Assembly (NCBI GenBank): GCA_910592005.1
Contig: CAJVPP010000701.1
Coordinates: 1 to 27,455 of the forward strand
Length of the DNA stretch: 27,455 nt
Source: Funneliformis mosseae
Lineage: Eukaryota > Glomeromycota > Glomeromycetes > Glomerales > Glomeraceae
Reading direction: 5' to 3'
The notes below the pieces were generated by a model that did not search any database, was not told where the DNA came from, and worked only from the letters and a program-made list of their open reading frames with translations. Of this stretch, positions 1,963-22,439 are shown in pieces. The translations under genes were made by a program, and so were the position numbers. Within the stretch, counting starts at the first letter, position 1, and each line of letters starts with the position of its first letter.

Positions 1963-3291
1963 TTATGACCAGAAAACTTTCCATTCCGCGGTACCAATGT
2001 GATTTAATGATCTATGTAGATTGGCTTCAACGTTTTCAAAAGCCGTTTGCAGAATTTGCAACGAATCTCCATGACTAACAAACACCACCACCAAATGTTC
2101 TTTTAAAAGTTCGGAATGTTGTTCAATCTCGCGAATCACGTCGCACATACGTGATCTGACTTGTTCACAAGATTCAACGCCAATTTCTTTGTATTCATTG
2201 TTTGATGGCGTGGTGATGGACTCATCAATTGCCCACACTTTAGAATAAGACTCATGATCTGATCTTAACTCAAATATACCAAAATTTCGTTCTCTTAAAT
2301 CATCATGTACAATGACCTCTGGATGAACCGTGACATCTACGTAAGGTTCGTCTCTTCCATTATTCAATAATTCCGTGAGCAGGATATTCGCGGTTTCAAT
2401 GGTACGAAGGAATGGAGAAGAATAGATTTTAATGTGAATTCTTTTAGACAAAGAAAACTGATTTTGTGATGGATTGTTGAACTCTTCATTGTTCCTATCA
2501 TCATCTCTTTTCTTTTGTTGATCATTTAGGTGGTATCCTGATGGGAAATTGTTGTAAAGATAATTCAACATATTTTGTGATGCCTGTAATCATGACAATG
2601 TGGCATTATTAATCATATTACATGTTGTATATCTCTCGGAATTAGAGTTGACAATTAAGCGAATTAAACAAGCTTTAAAGTTTTTTTTTTTTTTTTTCTT
2701 TTTTTTTTTCCTTAATTAGAAGAATGTTTGTCGTAATTCCATTGTGTTGATTACGAGAAAAATTTTTTTTTTTTTTTTTTTGGAGATTTTACTTGCATAG
2801 ATGTACGAACAAATACTTTAATTATTTTTTGTTGTTTATGTGTCTCTTTTTGCATTGTATGAATTTTGGTTGAAATATTTTTACATTAATAAATTAATGA
2901 TTATACAATGCAAGGAATGTGATTTACACTATTATGTGCATTTTGCACATAATGCCGTAAGAAACTTCCATTTCGACTCATGATTACGACAAATTTTTTT
3001 CTTAACAACAATAAACCCATTTATGAATTTATTGTTTTACTATTTATTTTCTTAATGACAAAAGTTACTTACACTTTTAACTTGTTCCTTACCTAGCTGC
3101 GTTAATCCCCATCCATTGCCTTCACTCGAGGAGGAGGCGGGAGACGGAGGTCCTACTCCCGAAGAGGGAATCCCATTTTCCGGATGTGATACTACGATTT
3201 TAGCACTATTAGCTTTCGATTGTCCATGTCTGAAAAGAATGTAATGATTATTTAATTGTTCTAAAGAAAGTTTTGTTGGGGGTGAATTCAT
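1963..3291 (-). CDS. Histidine phosphatase (phosphoglycerate mutase-like) family protein, 2 exons
   Basis: Minus-strand gene with exon 1 at 3291-3073 and exon 2 at 2583-1963, coding for 279 aa. The intron (3072-2584, 489 nt) starts GTAAGT and ends AG, and both exons join in phase 0. The product carries the family signature: LFRHGQSKAN near the N-terminus, with the nucleophilic His at about residue 22. Exon 2 has an SSPFLRTIETA segment, an ERNFG segment (candidate acidic general acid) and VSHGDSLQIL with the second catalytic-pocket His. These place it in histidine phosphatase branch 1. The substrate cannot be told: members act on phosphosugars, fructose-2,6-bisphosphate or phosphoproteins. The open frame extends upstream to 3351 but begins there with GTG, across a G10 run; the first ATG is at 3291, so I start there. 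The linker between residues about 35 and 60 is rich in Pro, Ser and Gly. No targeting signal is visible. Confidence 0.85.
2931..2953. repeat. Perfect 10-bp hairpin inside the phosphatase intron
   Basis: ATTATGTGCA, then a TTT loop, then TGCACATAAT: a perfect inverted repeat with a 3-nt loop. It lies in the unusually long 489-nt intron; the other introns in the window are 63-186 nt. It could be a structured intronic RNA or the remnant of a small inverted-repeat element. I see no target-site duplication next to it. Confidence 0.7.
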
Positions 3292-9681: not shown

Positions 9682-9690
9682 AAAAAAAAA
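9682..9690 (-). terminator. Pol III poly(T) terminator of U6
   Basis: Read on the minus strand this is T9 directly after GGCAGCAAAA, the expected RNA polymerase III stop at the 3' end of the U6 gene. Transcripts would end in a few U residues within this tract. Confidence 0.8.
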
Positions 9691-9747
9691 TTTTGCTGCC
9701 GTAGCAGCTATCCACTCAAGATAACGTGTCATCCTTGTGCAGGGGCC

Positions 9748-9779
<32 letters not shown>

Positions 9780-9806
9780 ATAAGTGTCGCTCCGAAGAGA
9801 CGACAC
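9687..9806 (-). ncRNA. U6 spliceosomal snRNA
   Basis: The minus strand carries the U6 core: AAAATTGGAACGATACAGAG, then AAGATTAGCATGGCCCC and TGCACAAGGATGACAC. This includes the ACAGAGA box that pairs with the 5' splice site, the AGC catalytic triad and the internal stem-loop. U6 forms the catalytic core of the major spliceosome with U2. The 5' stem-loop GTGTCG...CGACAC closes on a CTC-TTCG-GAG tip. Downstream of the internal stem-loop lies a second hairpin, GCTGC-TACG-GCAGC, immediately before the T9 stop, so the RNA would be about 120 nt, somewhat longer than the roughly 100-112 nt usual in fungi and animals. A TATA motif lies about 25 bp upstream. It is not U6atac, because ACAGAGA and the U6 core are intact. 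The exact 5' end is inferred from the stem and the TATA distance. Confidence 0.95.
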
Positions 9807-10051: not shown

Positions 10052-13000
10052 ATGTTTTCTTCTAAATTAAATAAAATTAATTTGCCACTTTTACGTAACA
10101 AACTATTTTCCGAGACGCAACAAAATTACTCCCTTTATTCTATTTTGCTTCGACGACATAGTAATAAAAAGTAATATAACTCCAAATGACTAGTGACTTT
10201 TTTTTTCTCCTTATTTTTTAACAGAATATAATTTTTTTTTTTTTTAGGTTAAGTATCCATGAAAAAACCTTGCAACTTGAAAAAGAAATAAAGAAGCTGG
10301 AACAAAAAATATTGAAGTTTGATAAAAAAGCTATTGCCTCGGAGGTGTTACCTCATTTAAACATTTTTTTTTTTTTTTAAAAAAAAAAAAATAATAATAT
10401 TTATATATTTAAATCTTGAATGTTAGTCAGACAGTCAACCACTATTATCAGAAGACCTTTACACAAATGTATATAAAGCAATTTCCGACCCTTCCGTACC
10501 TCTTCCTCGACGACTTCAATCTAATTTTACAAATAATCTTAAATTACCGATGGATTCTCTTCAAGCGTGTCAAAGATCACCATTTCCTTCTATAAGTGAT
10601 TTGAAAGCATCCAAGCAGGATCAAGCAAATGCAATAACTGAATGGGACAAAGAAAACTTGGAATCCTTGGAACAATTTAATAAATGGTTGTACGCTTGCG
10701 TAAGTTTTTATATTTATTATTTATAAACTTTTATCATTTGCTAATTTTAAAAGAAAAAATCAAATTTAATTATATCTAGGCGTTATTGAAACGACCTGAT
10801 GAAGTCTTGGATATATTTTTATTGATGGAGGTTAGAATAAAACAAAGAACGTCGTTCCCTTAATACGCGCATTTTATATTCTAATCAAATGAAAGTTATT
10901 TATTTCAGAAAGCAGGTATTACCCCTAATATCATTACGTATGATAATTTAATAAACCTTTTCGCTTCTGTTGGAGATCTACAAAAAGCAATCGAATCATT
11001 TGAATTGATCGAACCTGGCAAGTATCTAAATTATTTAAATATTGATTACATTATTGCCTTTAATATTAATCGTTAATATAATATGTATTTATTTAGCTGG
11101 TCTTAGGCCGACGATACATAGTTACGCGAATTTGATTAAAGCATACGTTAAATATAATCGAGTCGATGATGCATTTAATGTGTATTCAAATATGAAAAAT
11201 AGTGGGGTGATGCCATCTCAGGTAATCTAATATTCAAAACTTTTAAAATCTTTTTTATTTCTATTCTGAAATTTTATTCGTCCTTTTTTTTTTTTTTTAA
11301 AAAAAAAAAAATTATAGCCTATTTTTACTACCTTAATTAAAGGGTGTATTGACAACGGAGAAATCAAGCGTGCATGGACAACATTTGATCATATGCGGTT
11401 GGAAGTATGTCAACCCGATGAGGTTACGTACAGTTTAATGATCCGCGCGTGTGCAAAGGTCGGTATATAAATAAATATGATGATCGGATTGAATAAACCC
11501 CATACTCATTATTCTCATTTATTCTCGTAGGAAGAAAATTCTGAAAGGGCTTTTGATTTATACCAAGAAATGAAAGAAAAAGGATTATATCCAACTGACG
11601 TGACATTTAATTCTTTGATTCATGCTTGCGCAAAAAGAAAAGATATCCTTTAGTATATTTGATTGCTTCTATATTTTATATATATATTCTTAATTAAATT
11701 CTTACATTATTATGAAGAAGCATTTAAATTACTACACGAGATGGAAGAATTTGGTTATCAACCCGATATGATTACATATAATTTATTGATGTTTGCATGC
11801 TCAAAGAAGGGAGATTTACAAATGGCTAGGAATCTGTTAATATCAATGATCCGAAGGTGAGATTATCTGTGCTCTGTTATAGACATTTTATATACGCCCA
11901 ACCAACCGAACACGATCGCTTCTTTTTTTTTTGTTTATAGTGCAAAGACCTATCCGTCATTGGCCCCAGATGAGTATACATTTACGAATTTATTTTGGAC
12001 GTATTCTACCTATAGAGAACCCATGAATTACATAAGTAGAGATCAACGAGAAGAAATATTAAAAAATAAACAATTAGACGCAGAGGCAGATGCAGAGGCC
12101 TTGTTATCGGGAGGTAATTCTTTGGAATTTTCTCAGAGGCATCAAATTGATCAGAGAGATCTGTTGGACGAAAATGAGATTGCAGATATGAAAACTCATT
12201 TGTTATCTGGAGTTGAAAATAAAGATAATTCTTTGGAATTATCTCAGGGACAACCAATTGATCAAAGGGAACTGTTGGACAAGGATGAGATTGTAGAGAT
12301 GAACACTCATCAAGAACTACAATCCGAATTAGTAATAGCAAATGGAGCACAACGAGAGAACGGGATTTCAGAAAATAAAGACTTGGTAATGATCGGATCC
12401 GGTACTTATCCATTATTGCGCAATGTGCCTGTTACTTACGCACAAACGGTTACAGAAGTGGAAATGATTTTCAATTATATAATCACATCGCAAACAAAGG
12501 AAACGACAGCTCCATTTCCCATAACATTGTCACCACAGTTAATTACCTCATATTTAGGCGTTCTAATTAAAAAGGCCCGTTATCCCAGTGTTTTTGATTT
12601 TTATCAAAATATAATACCAAAACTTAATGTTGAATTAAACGGATGGATATTTTTAAGTATATTAGATGTATGTTACAAACACAAGAGGGTTGATGAATCT
12701 TGGAGAATTTGGAAAGATTGGGAGAATTGGCGCGAACAACAAAATGAAAAGATTTACGAAAATGATTATGTTAGGAAGAAAGCATTTAAAGAAATCGGAA
12801 TGACTTCAGAAATGGAATACAAAATTTATAGATCAATGATCAAAATTTTGGCTAGGTAAAGTAGTCAACATGCATTAAACTCTAACACTTTAAAACACGT
12901 TATCCTAACATTTTATTTCAAAAAATTTATTAGGAGTAATGAATTACAAAGTGGTATTAGATTATTACAAACTTTATCAAATTTACAAAGACCTGATATT

Positions 13001-13285
13001 AAAGACTTTATTTTATTGTTGCAAAAATGTGTTGAAAATGATGATGAAATGGCACAAAGAAAAGTAATTAATTTATGTTATAATGATCCAGAAAGAAGTA
13101 AAATATTGAAATCTAGAAATTTATTAGCAAAAAAATGGAAAGGACAAGGAATCAAATTACCACCTAGAAACAAATTCGAGGAAAGCGAAGGAAGGATGGG
13201 ACGGTTTAATAAAAAAAGGGATGGAAATAAAAAATGGGAAAACGATAGGGGTGGTGAAAAATGGCATTTGCATGATGGTAAATAA
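10052..13285 (+). CDS. Mitochondrial-type pentatricopeptide repeat (PPR) protein, 11 exons
   Basis: Exons 10052-10170, 10248-10344, 10427-10699, 10780-10830, 10909-11017, 11097-11221, 11318-11458, 11531-11642, 11706-11856, 11941-12855 and 12934-13285 join in frame to 814 aa. The N-terminus (MFSSKLNKINLPLLRNKLF onward, then LLRRHS) is basic and looks like a mitochondrial presequence. After a coiled, charged stretch come about seven to eight PPR motifs (residues about 157-420) with the helix pattern TYxxLIxxxAK...A..LxxxM...G..P. PPR proteins bind single-stranded RNA, so a role in mitochondrial RNA processing or translation is likely; which RNA is unknown. An acidic insert (about residues 425-530) contains a tandem duplication, and the C-terminal tail (about 755-814) is very basic. 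One intron is AT-AC U12-type and one is GC-AG, listed separately. The intron at 11459 has a weak donor (GTCGGT) but is the only option I found that keeps the frame. It diverges from U6. I cannot assign a named orthologue. Confidence 0.88.
11018..11096 (+). other. GC-AG intron of the PPR gene
   Basis: The exon ends ...GAACCTG and the intron opens GCAAGT. The acceptor is TTTAG, and the split codon G+CT gives Ala within a PPR motif. Using the nearby GT four bases later (GTATCT) instead gives TAG after two codons. GC-AG introns are a known minor class of major-spliceosome introns. Confidence 0.75.
11643..11705 (+). other. U12-type (minor spliceosome) AT-AC intron
   Basis: The intron begins ATATCCTTTA, matching the minor-class 5' splice-site consensus RTATCCTT, and ends TTAC. 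TTCTTAAT at 11687-11694 resembles the U12 branch-site consensus TTCCTTAAC, with the likely branch A about 12 nt from the 3' end, the expected distance. Removing these 63 nt gives the codon GAT and the reading ACAKRKDYYEEAFKLLHEME, an uninterrupted PPR motif. Reading through hits TAG at 11651-11653. The only nearby GT (11653) with either following AG (11717 or 11720) creates a stop at or just after the junction. Confidence 0.85.
12101..12310 (+). repeat. Tandem duplication in the acidic insert of the PPR protein
   Basis: Two adjacent copies, 12101-12199 (33 codons) and 12200-12310 (37 codons), share NSLEfSQ...IDQRdLLDeDEI..M.TH. The second has a four-residue insertion (VENKD in place of G). 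The segment separates the PPR array from the C-terminal part and is acidic and low in hydrophobic residues, so probably disordered. Confidence 0.8.
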
Positions 13286-13997: not shown

Positions 13998-15631
13998 TTA
14001 TTGGGATCTAGGCCTTTCATCTTCACTAATTATTTCAGTAGTAAAATCATAATCATCAGCTATTGAATCATCATAGAAAGTTTCATAAAGAACGTGATCA
14101 TTGCTTTTATGAAAAAGTTTATAAACTTCAACCCTTTCAGAAATAAAATGTTCATAATCCACGATCTTTTTTTCAAAGATTTGTTGCCTACATACACCTT
14201 TAATCCAATTTAAATCATTACCAAACCAAGGAAACTTCTCAGAAGTACAACCAACTTTATTAACGGTGGGTTTAATACTACTATATATACCCTTGGAATC
14301 ATTGTCATCATCATGATTCATGTCTAAAGAAAAGATAAAACAATTTGCCAAGGTATCATATTTTTGGATTTTATTCCAAATATCAGCATTATAACCACCA
14401 ATTATTTGATTAAACCCCGAAGGTTTGATAAGAACTACGGTTGGACCATGACGATTACATTTCTTGTAAAATTTGTTGATATCTTTTAATTCATCTTGAC
14501 CACTACGATAAAGTAGCTTAAACATATAAGGCATGGATTCGGGTTGATAAGGTTGATGCTTTTTATCAATCCACGAAGAAATCAAAGAGAAATGTTTTAA
14601 CCTGATTAAGGTAGACTCTTCATCGGTGTACCTTAATCTCTTTGACAAAATGATTGAACGATTTGGTCGTCTACCCGCCAAATAAAATTCTCTCAATTCA
14701 TTCTTTACTTCTTTTGACAAGATTTTTTTAAAGGGTCTTACTTTATCATGATAATCCGCTCCAGAGATCAAAAAGAATCTAATGTGCGGTAAACAATCTT
14801 TCAAAGATGATTTTAACTTTTCAAAATCTTCCGTCTTCCAATTATTTATATCATCTTTTTCTTCAGTATCTAATGAACATTTGACTTTACCCCATTTAAT
14901 AACTTGATTCCAAATTTCAATCTCTTTTAAATCCAAATTATCACTCATCAATAATTTAGTTAAGATGCTCTCCTCTAAATGTCCAATATCTTTTGATCTC
15001 AAAAATGTTGATGAATCCTTTTGTATGATCTCCTCGCACGTCATTTTTAATTTACAAAACGCCTCATGTGTTGATGCAATTCGTTGAATCCTTACTAAAT
15101 TTTGTCGAAGCCAAAACATTTCTTTTTTAAGAATATAATCGATAATATGATCGATCAATTCGGTTAACGCAAGTTCATCCGCTGCTATCAATATATCAAG
15201 GAAGTACGGAAGCATATCTTCCGATAAAGAAATTATTCCGGTATAGATAAATCTAAACGAGAATGTGTGGTGAAAAACATAGATTTATATTTATAATAAG
15301 TATTGACTTTTTTTTCCTAAAAAAAAAAATAAAGATAAAAAAATAAAAACAAAAAAAAAAATTATCGGATTATTTACCTCAATATAATACGAAAAACGTC
15401 GGGTAAGATATTTGGTTTCTTCATCCTAATAATCCCATTGTCGGATTTCGCCCAATTAGTTGATAAAGCTGCGAGAAAATACGCCGATCTAGACCTCAGG
15501 ATGACGGAATGAGCTTTAAAAATTTCAATATTTTGTTCATGGCCAACTTCAATTACAACATTATAATCATCTGCCTCCTGATATAATTTTCGAATATCTC
15601 GTAAAAAAGATTTTTCCAATTTATTTTCCAT
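13998..15631 (-). CDS. BTB-BACK-TLDc domain protein, 2 exons
   Basis: Exon 1 at 15631-15378 and exon 2 at 15252-13998 join through a 125-nt GTAAAT...TTTAG intron, giving 502 aa. The N-terminal BTB/POZ fold (about residues 15-125) shows DYNVVIEVG, FKAHSVILRSRSAYF and, across the splice, FRIILRFIYTGIISLSEDML. A BACK-like helical region follows (about 132-250). A TLDc domain (about 307-466) has TVVLIKPSGFNQIIGGYNAD and a CFIFSLD strand. BTB proteins usually pair with cullin-3 as substrate adaptors; TLDc domains are linked to V-ATPase regulation and oxidative stress. This domain order is known to be greatly expanded in arbuscular mycorrhizal fungi; the function of individual members is unknown. 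The acidic tail and the missing usual aromatic run at the end of TLDc suggest a divergent member. The start is the first ATG after a TATA-like box. Confidence 0.87.
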
Positions 15632-15715
15632 CTTCCTTTTTTTTTTTTATTTATTTTTTTTTTTTTTAAAAGAGAGGAGAAAAACTTTCAAAAAAAAATA
15701 AAAAGGTCGATTCGG

Positions 15716-16734: not shown

Positions 16735-16862
16735 TTTTTGAAAAGTCATGTAACGTCGTGATTTATTACTATTCTTAGTCAAAGATCACAGATTAGGTGA
16801 ACGTTTTGATCAAAATCCTCCTTGACGAGATCTCTGGTATTTATACAGAGTTCATTCCCCCC

Positions 16863-18494
16863 ATGTTCAAAAAAAAAGGTTTAATCGATGGAAGAAATCA
16901 TATAATGATGCTCCTTAAGATAAGATTTCAAATTTTTCGTAACCCTAGGATGCGACAATCGTCATCTGTAATGCAACGAAGGTTATTCAACTCGAGTTTG
17001 ATGAAACGTCAATCCACATCACCTCTAGGATCGGAAACGAACCTTGTTCCGATGGAATCGATCGACAACAATGTCAATTCAAGAGATCAACCATTGAAGA
17101 TATGGACGGATCAAGAATTAAAGACCCTTTTTGATGCTTTCTCTAAGCATGGTAGCGATTGGAACATCATATCCAAGGAATACTTTCAAGAAAGTCGAAC
17201 CCCTTCGGCTATAAAAAACAAATGGAAACGTGCTAACATTTGGACCAAAGTGGAAGAAAATAAACTCGAAGATGCCATCTCAAAACATGGAGAAGATTGG
17301 GAATTTATTTCCAAAGAGTACTTTCAAATGAAACGGACACCTCGAATATTAAAAATCAAATGGAAAACTTTCCTCAAGCGTCAGACGCAAAAAGCAAGGA
17401 CACTTAGAGATGCTGTCAAGGAATACTTTCAAGTAAGTCGATCCCCTTCGTCATTAAAACATAAATGGGTACGTTCTGTTAATCATTTGACCGAAGAAGA
17501 AGTAAGGTTACTTCAAGATGCCGTATCAAAACATGGAAAAGATTGGGAATTTATTTCCAAAGAGTACTTTCAAATGAATCGGACACCTCGGGAATTAAAA
17601 AACAAATGGAACAATCATTGGACGGAGGATGAAGTAAGGAAACTTAGAGATGCTGTCGCCAAACATGGTGAAGATTGGAATTTCATAACCGAGAAATACT
17701 TTCAAGCAAGTCGAACATCTTCGTCAATAAATCATAAATGGATACGTTCTGTTAATCATTTGACTGAAGAAGAAGGATGGATACTTATTGATGCGGTTTC
17801 AAAACACGAAGGAGATTGGGAATTTATTTCTAAAAAGTATTTTCAAAATAATCGGTCAGCTCGGGAATTAGAAATCAAATGGAACACTCTTCTCAAGTAT
17901 TGGAGTGAGGAAGAAATAAAGAAACTTAGAGATGCCGTTTCTAAGCATGGTAAAGATTGGCAGTTGATATCCAAGGAATATTTTCAAGCAAATCGAACAG
18001 TTTCGTCATTAAAAGATAAACATAGTAGGAGCAAAGATAAAATGCTTCTGATCAAAGAACATGACACATACCAGGAAAACGTTAAAAAAATCAACAACAC
18101 CAATCCAGAGAATCAAGAAATTTATGATACAAAATCAACTAACGATTACCATACAAAGACATATCGTAAACGAAATAAACATTCATGGACAAACGAAGAG
18201 GATCAAATTTTACCCGAACTAATTAAAAATCATGGGATTAAAATAGCTGCCGAAATGTTGAATCGGTCTAAAAGGTCACTATATTCCTATTATAAGAAAA
18301 AAGAACATTCTTATGATTCGTTAATGAAAAAATCGAATACGATTTCGAAGAAATTTCAAAAGCCTTCGGATGTTGGCGTTGATAAAGATATAGAGACCTC
18401 GTGGATTAGAAATTTGGATGAAAGCTCTACATATAAATCAAGTTTACAACGATGCAGAATAAATTGGCAGCAGCTTTGTTTACAAAGTCCTTGA
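16863..18494 (+). CDS. Multi-repeat SANT/Myb-like protein
   Basis: One open frame running to the stop at 18492-18494. From the first in-frame ATG at 16863 it encodes 543 aa; the frame extends to 16797 but opens there with GTG. Other ATGs at 16905/16908 and 16950 are also plausible. Counting from 16863, eight SANT/Myb-like helix-turn-helix repeats cover about residues 81-387 and 442-478. Repeats follow the pattern W..EE...L.DAVSKHG.DW.FISKEYFQ..RTP..LK.KW. Repeat 3 lacks 11 residues. Repeats of this kind bind DNA or chromatin. Residues about 15-57 contain no Asp or Glu but many Arg, Lys, Ser and Leu (ending RRLFNSSLMKRQSTS), which resembles a mitochondrial presequence, so the compartment is uncertain. 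The Lys-rich tail has no clear domain. I do not recognise a specific orthologue. Such multi-SANT proteins are known as expanded families in these fungi. Confidence 0.8.
   Translation: MFKKKGLIDGRNHIMMLLKIRFQIFRNPRMRQSSSVMQRRLFNSSLMKRQSTSPLGSETNLVPMESIDNNVNSRDQPLKIWTDQELKTLFDAFSKHGSDWNIISKEYFQESRTPSAIKNKWKRANIWTKVEENKLEDAISKHGEDWEFISKEYFQMKRTPRILKIKWKTFLKRQTQKARTLRDAVKEYFQVSRSPSSLKHKWVRSVNHLTEEEVRLLQDAVSKHGKDWEFISKEYFQMNRTPRELKNKWNNHWTEDEVRKLRDAVAKHGEDWNFITEKYFQASRTSSSINHKWIRSVNHLTEEEGWILIDAVSKHEGDWEFISKKYFQNNRSARELEIKWNTLLKYWSEEEIKKLRDAVSKHGKDWQLISKEYFQANRTVSSLKDKHSRSKDKMLLIKEHDTYQENVKKINNTNPENQEIYDTKSTNDYHTKTYRKRNKHSWTNEEDQILPELIKNHGIKIAAEMLNRSKRSLYSYYKKKEHSYDSLMKKSNTISKKFQKPSDVGVDKDIETSWIRNLDESSTYKSSLQRCRINWQQLCLQSP
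17100..18030 (+). repeat. Internal array of seven SANT repeats with two-repeat periodicity
   Basis: Repeats start near 17103, 17241, 17376, 17487, 17619, 17760 and 17901. Odd repeats 1, 3, 5 and 7 share EYFQ.SR.psSl.hKW with R3 and R5 followed by RSVNHLTEEE, while even repeats 2, 4 and 6 share DWEFISKeYFQm.RtpReLk.KW. This indicates growth by duplication of a pair, about 270-285 nt long. Repeat 3 has lost 33 nt between helices 1 and 2. Confidence 0.85.
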
Positions 18495-18967: not shown

Positions 18968-20659
18968 TTAAAATTGATCTTGAATCCAAATTGGCAGAGA
19001 TTCAATTACCTTATAGGAAAGTTTCTTTTTATAATGTAAACTAAAATGATATTTTTCTAAAAGATATCTGCTCAATTTTATAAATTGTAAACTGCCAACT
19101 CTATCGTAATATTCCATGATGAACAAAGAATATTTTCTATGCGGTTCATATATAACAAATAACTCGAAAGAAATTAAATGTATTGAACATGCACTCAAGA
19201 ATGTTTTTAGTAATCCCATAGTGAAGGAAAGATTTAGGGATAAGTGGTGTAAGGAGTAAGGTAATGAATGAGCTAATTGATGGATCATGGCCTCCGTGAA
19301 TAAACAATACTCCTCTTTAGGAGATTCTACATACAATTGCTTCAAAGAATTCATCAAAGACAATACTTTACTAAACCTTGATATGGTCTGAGATTTAATG
19401 ATGATACGCAGATGAGTCAAGTTCACCGAGTACTTTTTTAAATTGATAAAGTATTCGGAACAAAAATATTTACAGGTAAATGTTTTTAAGTTATTCGATA
19501 TCATTTGTAACAGGAAGGAAATTCCATAGTCATTATGAGTGTTAACGGTAGAACTTTCCGGTTGATTTTGCAAATAACAAAGTTTGTTTATAGAAATATT
19601 TGCATTCCTATATTTTAATATGGGCACGTGGTCATTTTTATGGAATTCTTCAACTTCTAACGTGGTTAAATTATTACAAATCACTAACACTTCCATTAAA
19701 CAACTTAATCTAACCCTACCAAATAATCTAATATGACTTAAGGAATCTCCTTGTTTACATAATGAATTAAAGATCACTTTATCATGTCGAGGTATCCAAA
19801 TTTCGTTTATCTCAAAACTTTTTAGAGCCCTTTGGGATCCAACTAGATTCGCAATCGAATTATAAATTGATTGCACGCTAAATTCTGTATTATTTAAACG
19901 GAAAGATAAATGTTTGATATTCGTCGCGGATGATGAGATGGTATTAAGGAAATTTGGCCATGTTATCGAATAAACTTCATCCATGATACAGCTTCCATTA
20001 AATCTAAATGATTGAATCTTATCCAACGAATTGTTTATCAAGGAATGACTTGAACCTACTCTCTCTTCTCTTTTTCCTCCAAGCAACGATAATGAATGGT
20101 CTAATGTAAGGATGATCTGTCTAGACAGATGAGTCCGGTAATAATCAAATTCTCTGATACCTCGAGATCGAGAAAAGATCATGTTGACGATTACGCTGGA
20201 TATGATCATCCTTTTCCCATTCATGTGCAAAAAATCGATTTCGTTTCCGGTAACGAAATCCTCGAGACCTATAGCAAAATTGCTATAGATAAATGTCAAG
20301 AGGAATGAAGGGTAATCAAATAATGGTGGGGATGGATGGGTTGGAATTCGAATCTGTTGCTGACGCAACAGGGACTTTTCTGATTCATCCAAACAGCAGA
20401 TATATGTACGTACGGCAAAATATCCATAATAATTCGGTTTCATGAATGGATTGCTCCATAATATTGGTATGGCTAACCTACACCAAAGTCTGCTCACCAG
20501 GATACAAGAATGCAAAGACGTTCGATCATCACTTAAACAACGGAATATTTCATCCAATATATCTGGTATTAATACTGGTTTGGATTTTGTTAACTTTGAA
20601 AGTTTTGGAAATTTTAACTTGTTTGAAAATCTTTTGATGGAAAAGTTACTATGTCCCAT
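18968..20659 (-). CDS. F-box protein with LRR-like C-terminus
   Basis: A single uninterrupted exon of 563 codons on the minus strand, beginning at the ATG at 20659. Residues about 29-72 form an F-box: LIPDILDEIFRCLSDDRTSL followed by HSCILVSRLWCRLAIPILWS. The F-box binds Skp1 in SCF ubiquitin ligases. The rest (about 200-540) has irregular leucine-rich segments such as SLDKIQSFRFNG, NIKHLSFRLNN, LTTLEVEEF, NLTHLRIII and LHHLSLNLSF, which would form the substrate-binding part. The N-terminus before the F-box is basic. F-box proteins of this layout are a large family in arbuscular mycorrhizal fungi; the target is unknown. It faces the SANT gene tail to tail. No frameshift or stop is seen. Confidence 0.88.
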   Translation of the reverse strand: MGHSNFSIKRFSNKLKFPKLSKLTKSKPVLIPDILDEIFRCLSDDRTSLHSCILVSRLWCRLAIPILWSNPFMKPNYYGYFAVRTYICCLDESEKSLLRQQQIRIPTHPSPPLFDYPSFLLTFIYSNFAIGLEDFVTGNEIDFLHMNGKRMIISSVIVNMIFSRSRGIREFDYYRTHLSRQIILTLDHSLSLLGGKREERVGSSHSLINNSLDKIQSFRFNGSCIMDEVYSITWPNFLNTISSSATNIKHLSFRLNNTEFSVQSIYNSIANLVGSQRALKSFEINEIWIPRHDKVIFNSLCKQGDSLSHIRLFGRVRLSCLMEVLVICNNLTTLEVEEFHKNDHVPILKYRNANISINKLCYLQNQPESSTVNTHNDYGISFLLQMISNNLKTFTCKYFCSEYFINLKKYSVNLTHLRIIIKSQTISRFSKVLSLMNSLKQLYVESPKEEYCLFTEAMIHQLAHSLPYSLHHLSLNLSFTMGLLKTFLSACSIHLISFELFVIYEPHRKYSLFIMEYYDRVGSLQFIKLSRYLLEKYHFSLHYKKKLSYKVIESLPIWIQDQF

Positions 20660-22439
20660 TTTCTTTTTGGGGAATACCGGTTATGAGATAGATAAAAAGA
20701 ATGTGTAATGATAAAGTTTAAAAAGGAGAAGGGAGAGTATAAGATGGTAAGGAGAAAAAAGAGAAGAATAATTTTTTTTTTTTTTTTTGTGTGAATGAAG
20801 GAGCTCATCGTTTTATAAAAAAAATTTCATGATTTGTCCGAATATGTGTGTATTACCCGTAAATTCCTAAAGAAGTAACATAACCTTATTCTTATTATTC
20901 TGAAAATCGGATCATCCTTCTTTACTAAATACCAATAATAATATTTTTTGTTGTGGTATGTCCACGTCACGGTTGTAAGTAAAAATAAAGATCAAAATCA
21001 TTTGTTCAATTTTTATAAATATGACATGGGAGTCTATCACCTGTTCACTTGTTAACCTTTACACGATGTTTGTGACACTGCGATACAGGTGTGATTAGTA
21101 GTCGGTTTCATATTCGGCGTCGAAATTGATGAAACCGACCAAGTTATCATTGATAGATCGTGACTTGTAGCTTTTTTTTCGTAAAGTCACGCGATTAGAA
21201 TGATGCCTAACTTCGGTCCGGCTGGTCCATATAAGGATCATTTTTATTAAACCATTTATTCATAGTGACAGATTCCGTTTATAAATTGTTTTATTTGCAG
21301 TTTTTCAGGAGAAAGTTTGTGTTACGTAATACAGGTTTAGAGCTTATTAATGTTTATAATACATTTATCCGTGATGACAGCGGTTCAATGGAAAGAAACT
21401 AACCTAAAACTCTATCATCATTTCTTTCATGTAATTCTTTTAAACGTTTTTGCTTTTTTTTTTATTTTTATCTTTTTTATTTTTTTTAAAAAAAAACTTG
21501 ATTGTCAAAAAGCATTTATTGTATTTTACAAACAAACTCGTTTTTAATTGAGTGATAATGATAGAAATTAAATCTTATCTAATTTGTAATTTTACGGGGG
21601 TCCCTTATTGTACGCTTCTGCATATGTACACTGATAATGTCCGTTCTTTATCTTTCTCAAATTATCTATATCATCAATCAAAGATTTTTGGTGTCAAAAT
21701 TTTGATTTGGTAATTTCCCATTTGTTGAAATTTGTGAATTTTTTAAAAAAAAAAAAAAAAAAAAAATAAATAAATAAGTAAATAAATAAATGAAGACGTG
21801 TATTTATGTATGATGAAATGAGGCATGATAAAGATCTTCAGTTGATATTTTTGAGTAATTATAACGGGCTATATATACTTTGAACTTTATCATTAAAAAA
21901 ATTCGATTTAATAAAAGTTAATTTGTCGAAGATCCCTCTACATCGTAAATTGTTGACGCTAAAAAAAGGTGCATCTATTTATGGAATTTTTTTTTTATTT
22001 TGTTTTCTTTAATTGTGCGTTTCCAACTAGATTTTTAAATAGAAGAGAATATGAAATTTTTCGTAACAAAAGTTTTACCGCAACAAGTATTTCAAATAGA
22101 TAGGGGTTGGTATTGTAACGTAGTACATCGGTTAAATCAATTCCAACTATCAAATAATTTTATTAAAGTAAAGTAATATTATTATTAAATTGCATTAACT
22201 GAACATGTTCTAATCTAGTGTTGACGACCAAAAGATTGTCAAATGTCAAAACACTCTCCATAAAGATGATCTGGACTCATTCATAAGACTGATCTCTGTG
22301 TAATCTAAAGGGTAGGAAATCAAAGATTGATTGACAGATTCCAAAATGGTCCTAATAACAATTCTTCAATATACATGTTAAGCCAGCAACTTTTTTTAGA
22401 AATAGATTAGATACAAAATAGCAAAGAGTAGCAATATTT
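20660..22439. other. Gene-poor spacer right of the F-box gene
   Basis: It starts with the F-box promoter region; a TTTTATAAAA at 20811-20820 is the only TATA-like motif, about 155 bp from the ATG. It then contains a cluster of stem-loops at 21036-21190 (listed separately). The plus-strand frame at 21350-21547 is Phe/Lys low complexity. No coding exon is supported. Confidence 0.55.
21036..21190. repeat. Three successive imperfect stem-loops
   Basis: Arms: CACCTGT at 21038-21044 with ACAGGTG at 21085-21091; GTCGGTTTCAT at 21101-21111 with ATGAAACCGAC at 21129-21139 (perfect 11 bp, with an inner TTCG-GCGT-CGAA stem at 21113-21124); GTGACTT at 21160-21166 with AAGTCAC at 21184-21190, its loop containing a T run. 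The region is more GC-rich than its surroundings. It could be a structured noncoding RNA or the inner part of an inverted-repeat element; I recognise no RNA family. Confidence 0.6.

Follow-up and report, generated by a model that had tools for sequence, protein, structure and literature searches.

The window, i.e. the whole 27,455-nt stretch of DNA that was analysed, carries a gene for a PPR protein of Funneliformis mosseae (Table 1). The exon-intron model of this gene was built by eye. Its spliced product of 814 amino acids contains no internal stop, and its introns comprise eight with GT-AG ends, one with GC-AG ends and one with AT-AC ends. The Pfam family PPR_2 matched seven stretches along the predicted protein (E = 2.9e-57), which thus contains the tandem 35-residue motifs of PPR proteins. 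The N-terminus appeared basic by eye, and the protein may have a mitochondrial role. To find relatives, the 7,992 candidates that shared most words with the protein were scored, and the best 120 of 178 proteins were considered. Among the matches listed, the closest deposited protein was P0001 of F. mosseae, which was 100% identical over 57% of the query. There is some likeness to the fungal CCM1-type mitochondrial PPR proteins, in that the source name of relative P0025 opens with 'Mitochondrial group I intron splicing'. The CCM1 chain 8d8j_d matched the PPR protein with E = 3.3e-11, but other PPR chains scored far better. This likeness is limited by the broad cross-matching among PPR proteins, and CCM1 is at most a putative orthologue.

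Some 250 bases separate the upstream end of the PPR gene from a divergently oriented U6 spliceosomal RNA gene (9687-9804, reverse strand; Rfam RF00026, 89.4 bits). Reading frames were also found nearby at 13998-15646 (-), 16797-18494 (+), 18968-20680 (-) and 1963-2589 (-). These neighbours encode BTB and BACK/TLDc pieces, a protein in which seven stretches are Myb-like, an F-box-like protein and part of a histidine phosphatase.

Table 1. Features of the PPR gene and its predicted AT-AC intron, with the strict-pattern AT-AC loci found elsewhere in the genome.
Feature	Position	Strand	Remark
PPR protein gene	10052..13285	+	model by eye, 11 exons, 814 aa
GC-AG intron of the same gene	11018..11096	+	by-eye model
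Exon 8, upstream of the AT-AC intron	11531..11642	+	ends with the first base of a split codon (phase 1)
Predicted U12-type AT-AC intron	11643..11705	+	63 nt, phase 1
5' splice site ATATCCTTTA	11643..11652	+	pairs with the 5' end of the genome's U11 (-8.4 kcal/mol)
Branch-like TTCTTAAT	11687..11694	+	two differences from TCCTTAAC, both C to T
3' splice site TTAC	11702..11705	+	end of the AT-AC intron
Exon 9, downstream of the AT-AC intron	11706..11856	+	PPR gene model
Strict-pattern AT-AC loci	L007, L009, L011, L012, L013, L014		genome G000

The AT-AC intron starts with ATATCCTTTA and ends with TTCTTAATTAAATTCTTAC, between the flanks AAAAAGAAAAG and ATTATTATGAAG. In animals and plants, AT-AC introns of the U12 type have AT-AC ends, a ATATCCTT donor and a branch site shortly before the acceptor. 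The branch site of U12-type introns is close to TTCCTTAAC, at a distance of roughly 10 to 20 nt from the acceptor. The intron in the PPR gene has AT and AC termini with the donor ATATCCTT, and its branch-like TTCTTAAT, at intron position 45, is close to TTCCTTAAC and has its second A 12 nt before the last base of the intron. The branch consensus in Table 1 is that of the strict AT-AC matches of this genome. Hence, the intron shares ends, donor and branch placement with the animal and plant subclass, whereas its length of 63 nt, its G+C content of 16%, its location in a fungal PPR gene and the two C-to-T departures in its branch motif set it apart. When the intron is kept, the reading frame gives KRKDIL and then an in-frame TAG. 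When it is cut out, the join reads HACAKRKDYYEEAFKLLHEMEEFGYQPD without a stop, and KRKDYYEEAF falls within a 35-residue PPR motif. Cuts at 11644-11706 and 11645-11707 would give the same mRNA, but with the ends TA-CA and AT-AT. The first-pass annotation had proposed this AT-AC intron, with a branch motif about 12 nt before the TTAC, and its coordinates proved exact to the base.

A splice test was used to compare the possible junctions. Donors from 11560 to 11719 were combined with acceptors up to 11839 for intron lengths of 30 to 200 nt, and the resulting 24,200 donor/acceptor pairs gave 2,427 distinct open, in-frame products. These were scored with a profile built from 26 orthologues that do not belong to the Glomeromycotina and were hand-picked as intact at the junction. 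The AT-AC product ranked first of the 2,427 (132.5 bits), and its junction residues are conserved in the orthologues. This bears out the earlier claim that splicing restores the PPR reading. The next-best products were near variants with unlikely ends (e.g. AG-TT, 129.8 bits), while the best AT-AG and GC-AG products reached 111.8 and 90.9 bits, respectively. The first-pass annotation had also stated that GT-AG alternatives create stops, which is nearly right: among the 15 GT-AG pairs in the tested range, 11600-11740 is the one that stays open and in frame. That pair fell outside the 12 best canonical-type products, which extended down to 75.8 bits. GT-AG and GC-AG junctions, as well as AT-AG acceptors, were rejected.

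We also considered how easily the motifs could arise by chance. The 8-mer ATATCCTT occurs once on the two strands of the window, which is unsurprising because the mean in shuffled sequences was 2.1. A pattern of donor, branch and AC, composed after the intron had already been seen, had one match in the window, and 6% of 300 shuffled windows also contained it; for a laxer pattern that also allowed GT and AG, the figures were one match and 14%. By themselves, the motifs are only moderately unlikely. Chance becomes very unlikely because the motif match coincides with the need for an open frame and with the fit to the orthologue profile. A chance motif was rejected on this frame evidence, with the first rank among the open products.

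Pairing energies were calculated with the genome's own U11 and U6atac and with the U1 5' end. The AT-AC donor paired with U11 at -8.4 kcal/mol, compared with +1.3 to -4.8 kcal/mol for the nine other introns of the gene. In contrast, its pairing with U1 was only -0.2 kcal/mol, against -3.2 to -9.6 kcal/mol for the nine others. Hence, the AT-AC donor prefers U11 over U1, whereas the other nine all pair more strongly with U1 than with U11. Pairing with U6atac was likewise strongest at the AT-AC donor (-6.4 kcal/mol versus +1.9 to -3.4 kcal/mol). Pairing of the branch with U12 failed as a discriminator, since two GT-AG introns of the gene (-11.8 and -8.5 kcal/mol) scored better than the AT-AC intron (-6.4 kcal/mol).

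The F. mosseae genome was searched for minor-spliceosome RNAs with limits of E <= 1 for U11 and 0.001 for the other families. Genes for all four RNAs were found: U12 (71.5 bits), U6atac (80.1 bits) and U11 (74.7 bits) exceeded their Rfam cut-offs, and U4atac (48.5 bits) was just below its gathering score of 53. A second U11 match was weak (25.6 bits). The control genomes were empty, except for one sub-threshold U11 match in Synechococcus at the laxer limit of E <= 1. Furthermore, a gene on contig C927 encodes a U11-48K-like protein of 252 amino acids, with a CHHC finger at 34 bits (cut-off 21.1). The finger alone is not specific, because one of the 14 control genomes, Sulfolobus acidocaldarius, also scored over this cut-off. 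The spliced C927 peptide matched the U11/U12 48 kDa protein (PDB chain 8r7n_F) with E = 1.1e-19, in a match that covers RDYKRRR.SYRAKN. The minor snRNAs and the U11-48K protein that the first-pass annotation had named as parts to look for are thus encoded in the genome, with U4atac under its gathering score. The same annotation had envisaged a working minor spliceosome on which expression of the PPR protein depends. Its presence is supported by these component genes; that it works, and that expression depends on it, is presumed.

An exon-wise Pfam search gave no match to CCDC84/CENATAC, PDCD7, SNRNP25 (Ubiquitin_4) or SCNM1, and none in the controls either, so that this negative result carries no weight. 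The search for the DIM1 family gave four exon matches at a single locus (L024, G000:C683:22547-23236), which we take to be the shared DIM1 of the TXNL4A type rather than TXNL4B. Despite the AT-AC introns of the genome, neither a TXNL4B-type nor a CENATAC gene turned up in this search of limited sensitivity.

Across the genome, the strict AT-AC U12-type pattern gave eight hits at six loci, against three hits in a reversed control. The intron of the PPR gene is not included among them, since its branch motif departs from the strict form. All six loci carry TTCCTTAAC, though the pattern did not require its final C. At each of the six, one or more combinations of AC acceptor and reading frame gave an open join, but this is weak evidence by itself. 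The joins at two of the six loci span known domains, ATG9 (4e-29) and ChAPs (1.6e-15), and the spliced flanks of the other four had no Pfam match. One of these four, L013, had no sensible PDB match either; its spliced flank is presumably VAC14-like. The strict GT-AG pattern gave five hits at three loci (L015, L017, L018) and none in the control. These three were assessed by translation alone, and L015, which carries TTCCTTAAG, may be a GT-AG chance match. Strict AT-AC loci (six; three control hits) outnumbered strict GT-AG loci (three; no control hits), and AT-AC may be the commoner U12 subtype in this genome.

The relatives were aligned to compare the junction between species, with 66 of the 120 listed proteins taken into the alignment. 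Most of the aligned fungal orthologues, and a protein of an amoeba, read KRPDYY, KREDYY, RPEYF or similar across the junction. The exceptions outside the Glomeromycotina were three Syncephalis models (P0038, P0039 and P0041), which read CAQAF, CAPHYY and CAPIHYY. Their odd junctions suggest that an intron at this point may predate the Glomeromycotina. At least three of the ten residues around the junction were gapped in 12 of the 15 Glomeromycotina models (recognised by species name among the proteins listed), but in only one of 49 other models, namely Syncephalis fuscata P0038. The latter group leaves out P0037 and P0058, which by eye are not orthologues. At six other junctions tested, only 2 to 5 of the 15 models were gapped.

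Three of the 15 models had no such gap. Glomus cerebriforme was intact and reads KRKDYYEEAF, the same as the AT-AC splice at the protein level, while Ambispora gerdemannii reads KDILN and Cetraspora reads LYLNILHYYEE. Three more Glomeromycotina models were added through an N-terminal query (E <= 1e-60). In total, 17 of the 18 models were broken at the junction or contained likely intron residues. Read-through of G-ATATCCTT would yield KDIL. This reading is found inside the models of Geosiphon and A. gerdemannii, and the models of R. clarus (P0121, 345 aa) and Gigaspora rosea (P0122) end exactly there. Similarly, NILHYY is expected from a translated TTAC-ATTATTAT, and the NILHYYEE of Cetraspora would fit a 3' splice site that has been translated. 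The Scutellospora model skips the junction stretch. The deposited F. mosseae model P0001 (460 aa) starts at a Met within exon 9, that of F. geosporum (P0004, 465 aa) starts downstream of the AT-AC intron, and that of R. irregularis (P0003) has a junction that corresponds, at the protein level, to a GC-AG cut at 11628-11720 here. These Glomeromycotina data are protein models, many from one pipeline and some partial, and are not independent; they suggest that the AT-AC intron is probably common to the Glomeromycotina, and that the species sampled probably inherited its position and class from their common ancestor.

The motifs, the pairing with the genome's U11 and U6atac, the splice test and the orthologues all agree with the U12-type class that the first-pass annotation had assigned. 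Hence, we are highly confident, on sequence evidence, that this is a genuine AT-AC intron of the minor spliceosome in the PPR gene of F. mosseae. According to the known mechanism, U11 with U11-48K would recognise ATATCCTTT, U12 would pair with TTCTTAAT and bulge an A as the branch nucleophile, and U6atac would take the place of U11 at the donor. Removal of the 63 nt would join G|AT and restore the Asp of KRKDYYEEAF in the PPR motif. Full-length PPR protein would require minor splicing, because translation otherwise stops after KRKDIL. That the intron is spliced, and how efficiently, we infer from its sequence.

Other junctions could be chosen here. The major spliceosome might remove a GC-AG intron at 11628-11720 (IHA|SFKLL), which would leave a shortened PPR motif. 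This cut corresponds to the deposited protein P0003 of R. irregularis, but its product scored 90.9 instead of 132.5 bits and turns 11 residues that are kept in most other fungi into a single one. Moreover, the other Glomeromycotina models fail at this point in various ways, as if working round an intron that could not be modelled, and the G. cerebriforme protein agrees with the AT-AC splice. We consider the GC-AG cut extremely improbable. It is also hard to believe that U12-type splicing runs from the same donor to an AG at 11717 or 11720 rather than to the AC. The frame stays open through either junction (111.8 and 108.2 bits), but the products lose four or five residues and score 21 to 24 bits lower, and 24 or 27 nt, not 12, would separate the branch A from the acceptor.

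A further possibility accepts the minor intron as real, but supposes that it is often retained, such that the KDIL-ending product (345 aa, with a shortened PPR array) is a regulated or functional form. The KDIL-ending models P0121 and P0122 would then be true alternative products, and minor introns elsewhere are reported to be slow to splice. However, such models are also what an annotator without AT-AC introns is expected to produce, and we regard functional retention as unlikely, though compatible with the main explanation. Still more speculative, and rather improbable in our view, is the idea that the AT-AC intron has been kept in the Glomeromycotina as a switch, by which limiting minor splicing would yield KDIL-truncated PPR protein and tie the mitochondrial gene expression of these obligate symbionts to minor-spliceosome activity.

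Minor introns are already known in the mycorrhizal group from R. irregularis, a member of the same subphylum as F. mosseae. For that species, Larue and Roy (2023; PMC10639083) report 205 predicted minor introns, all four minor snRNAs with many specific proteins, donor and branch consensus sequences close to those of animals and plants, and a phase order of 1 > 2 > 0. The phase of the AT-AC intron (phase 1) is thus the commonest one in R. irregularis. The same study agrees with what the first-pass annotation had stated: early-diverging fungi keep minor introns, and convincing cases are lacking in Ascomycota and Basidiomycota. Because that study is based on annotated introns and P0003 skips the AT-AC junction, the R. 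irregularis counterpart of this intron may have gone uncounted there. The words 'Funneliformis' and 'pentatricopeptide' are absent from its main text. Our literature search found no paper joining Funneliformis mosseae and U12, and only PMC10639083 for arbuscular mycorrhizal fungi and the minor spliceosome. As far as searched, the novelty lies in this particular intron, in its likely conservation and in the damage done to public gene models.

These results place minor-spliceosome genes in F. mosseae together with one clear, testable AT-AC substrate. They also suggest that a single rare intron lies behind the faults in 17 of the 18 Glomeromycotina models of the PPR gene that were compared, such that public proteomes contain truncated or altered forms of a conserved protein. 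Minor introns may therefore be undercounted in these fungi where the counts rely on annotation.
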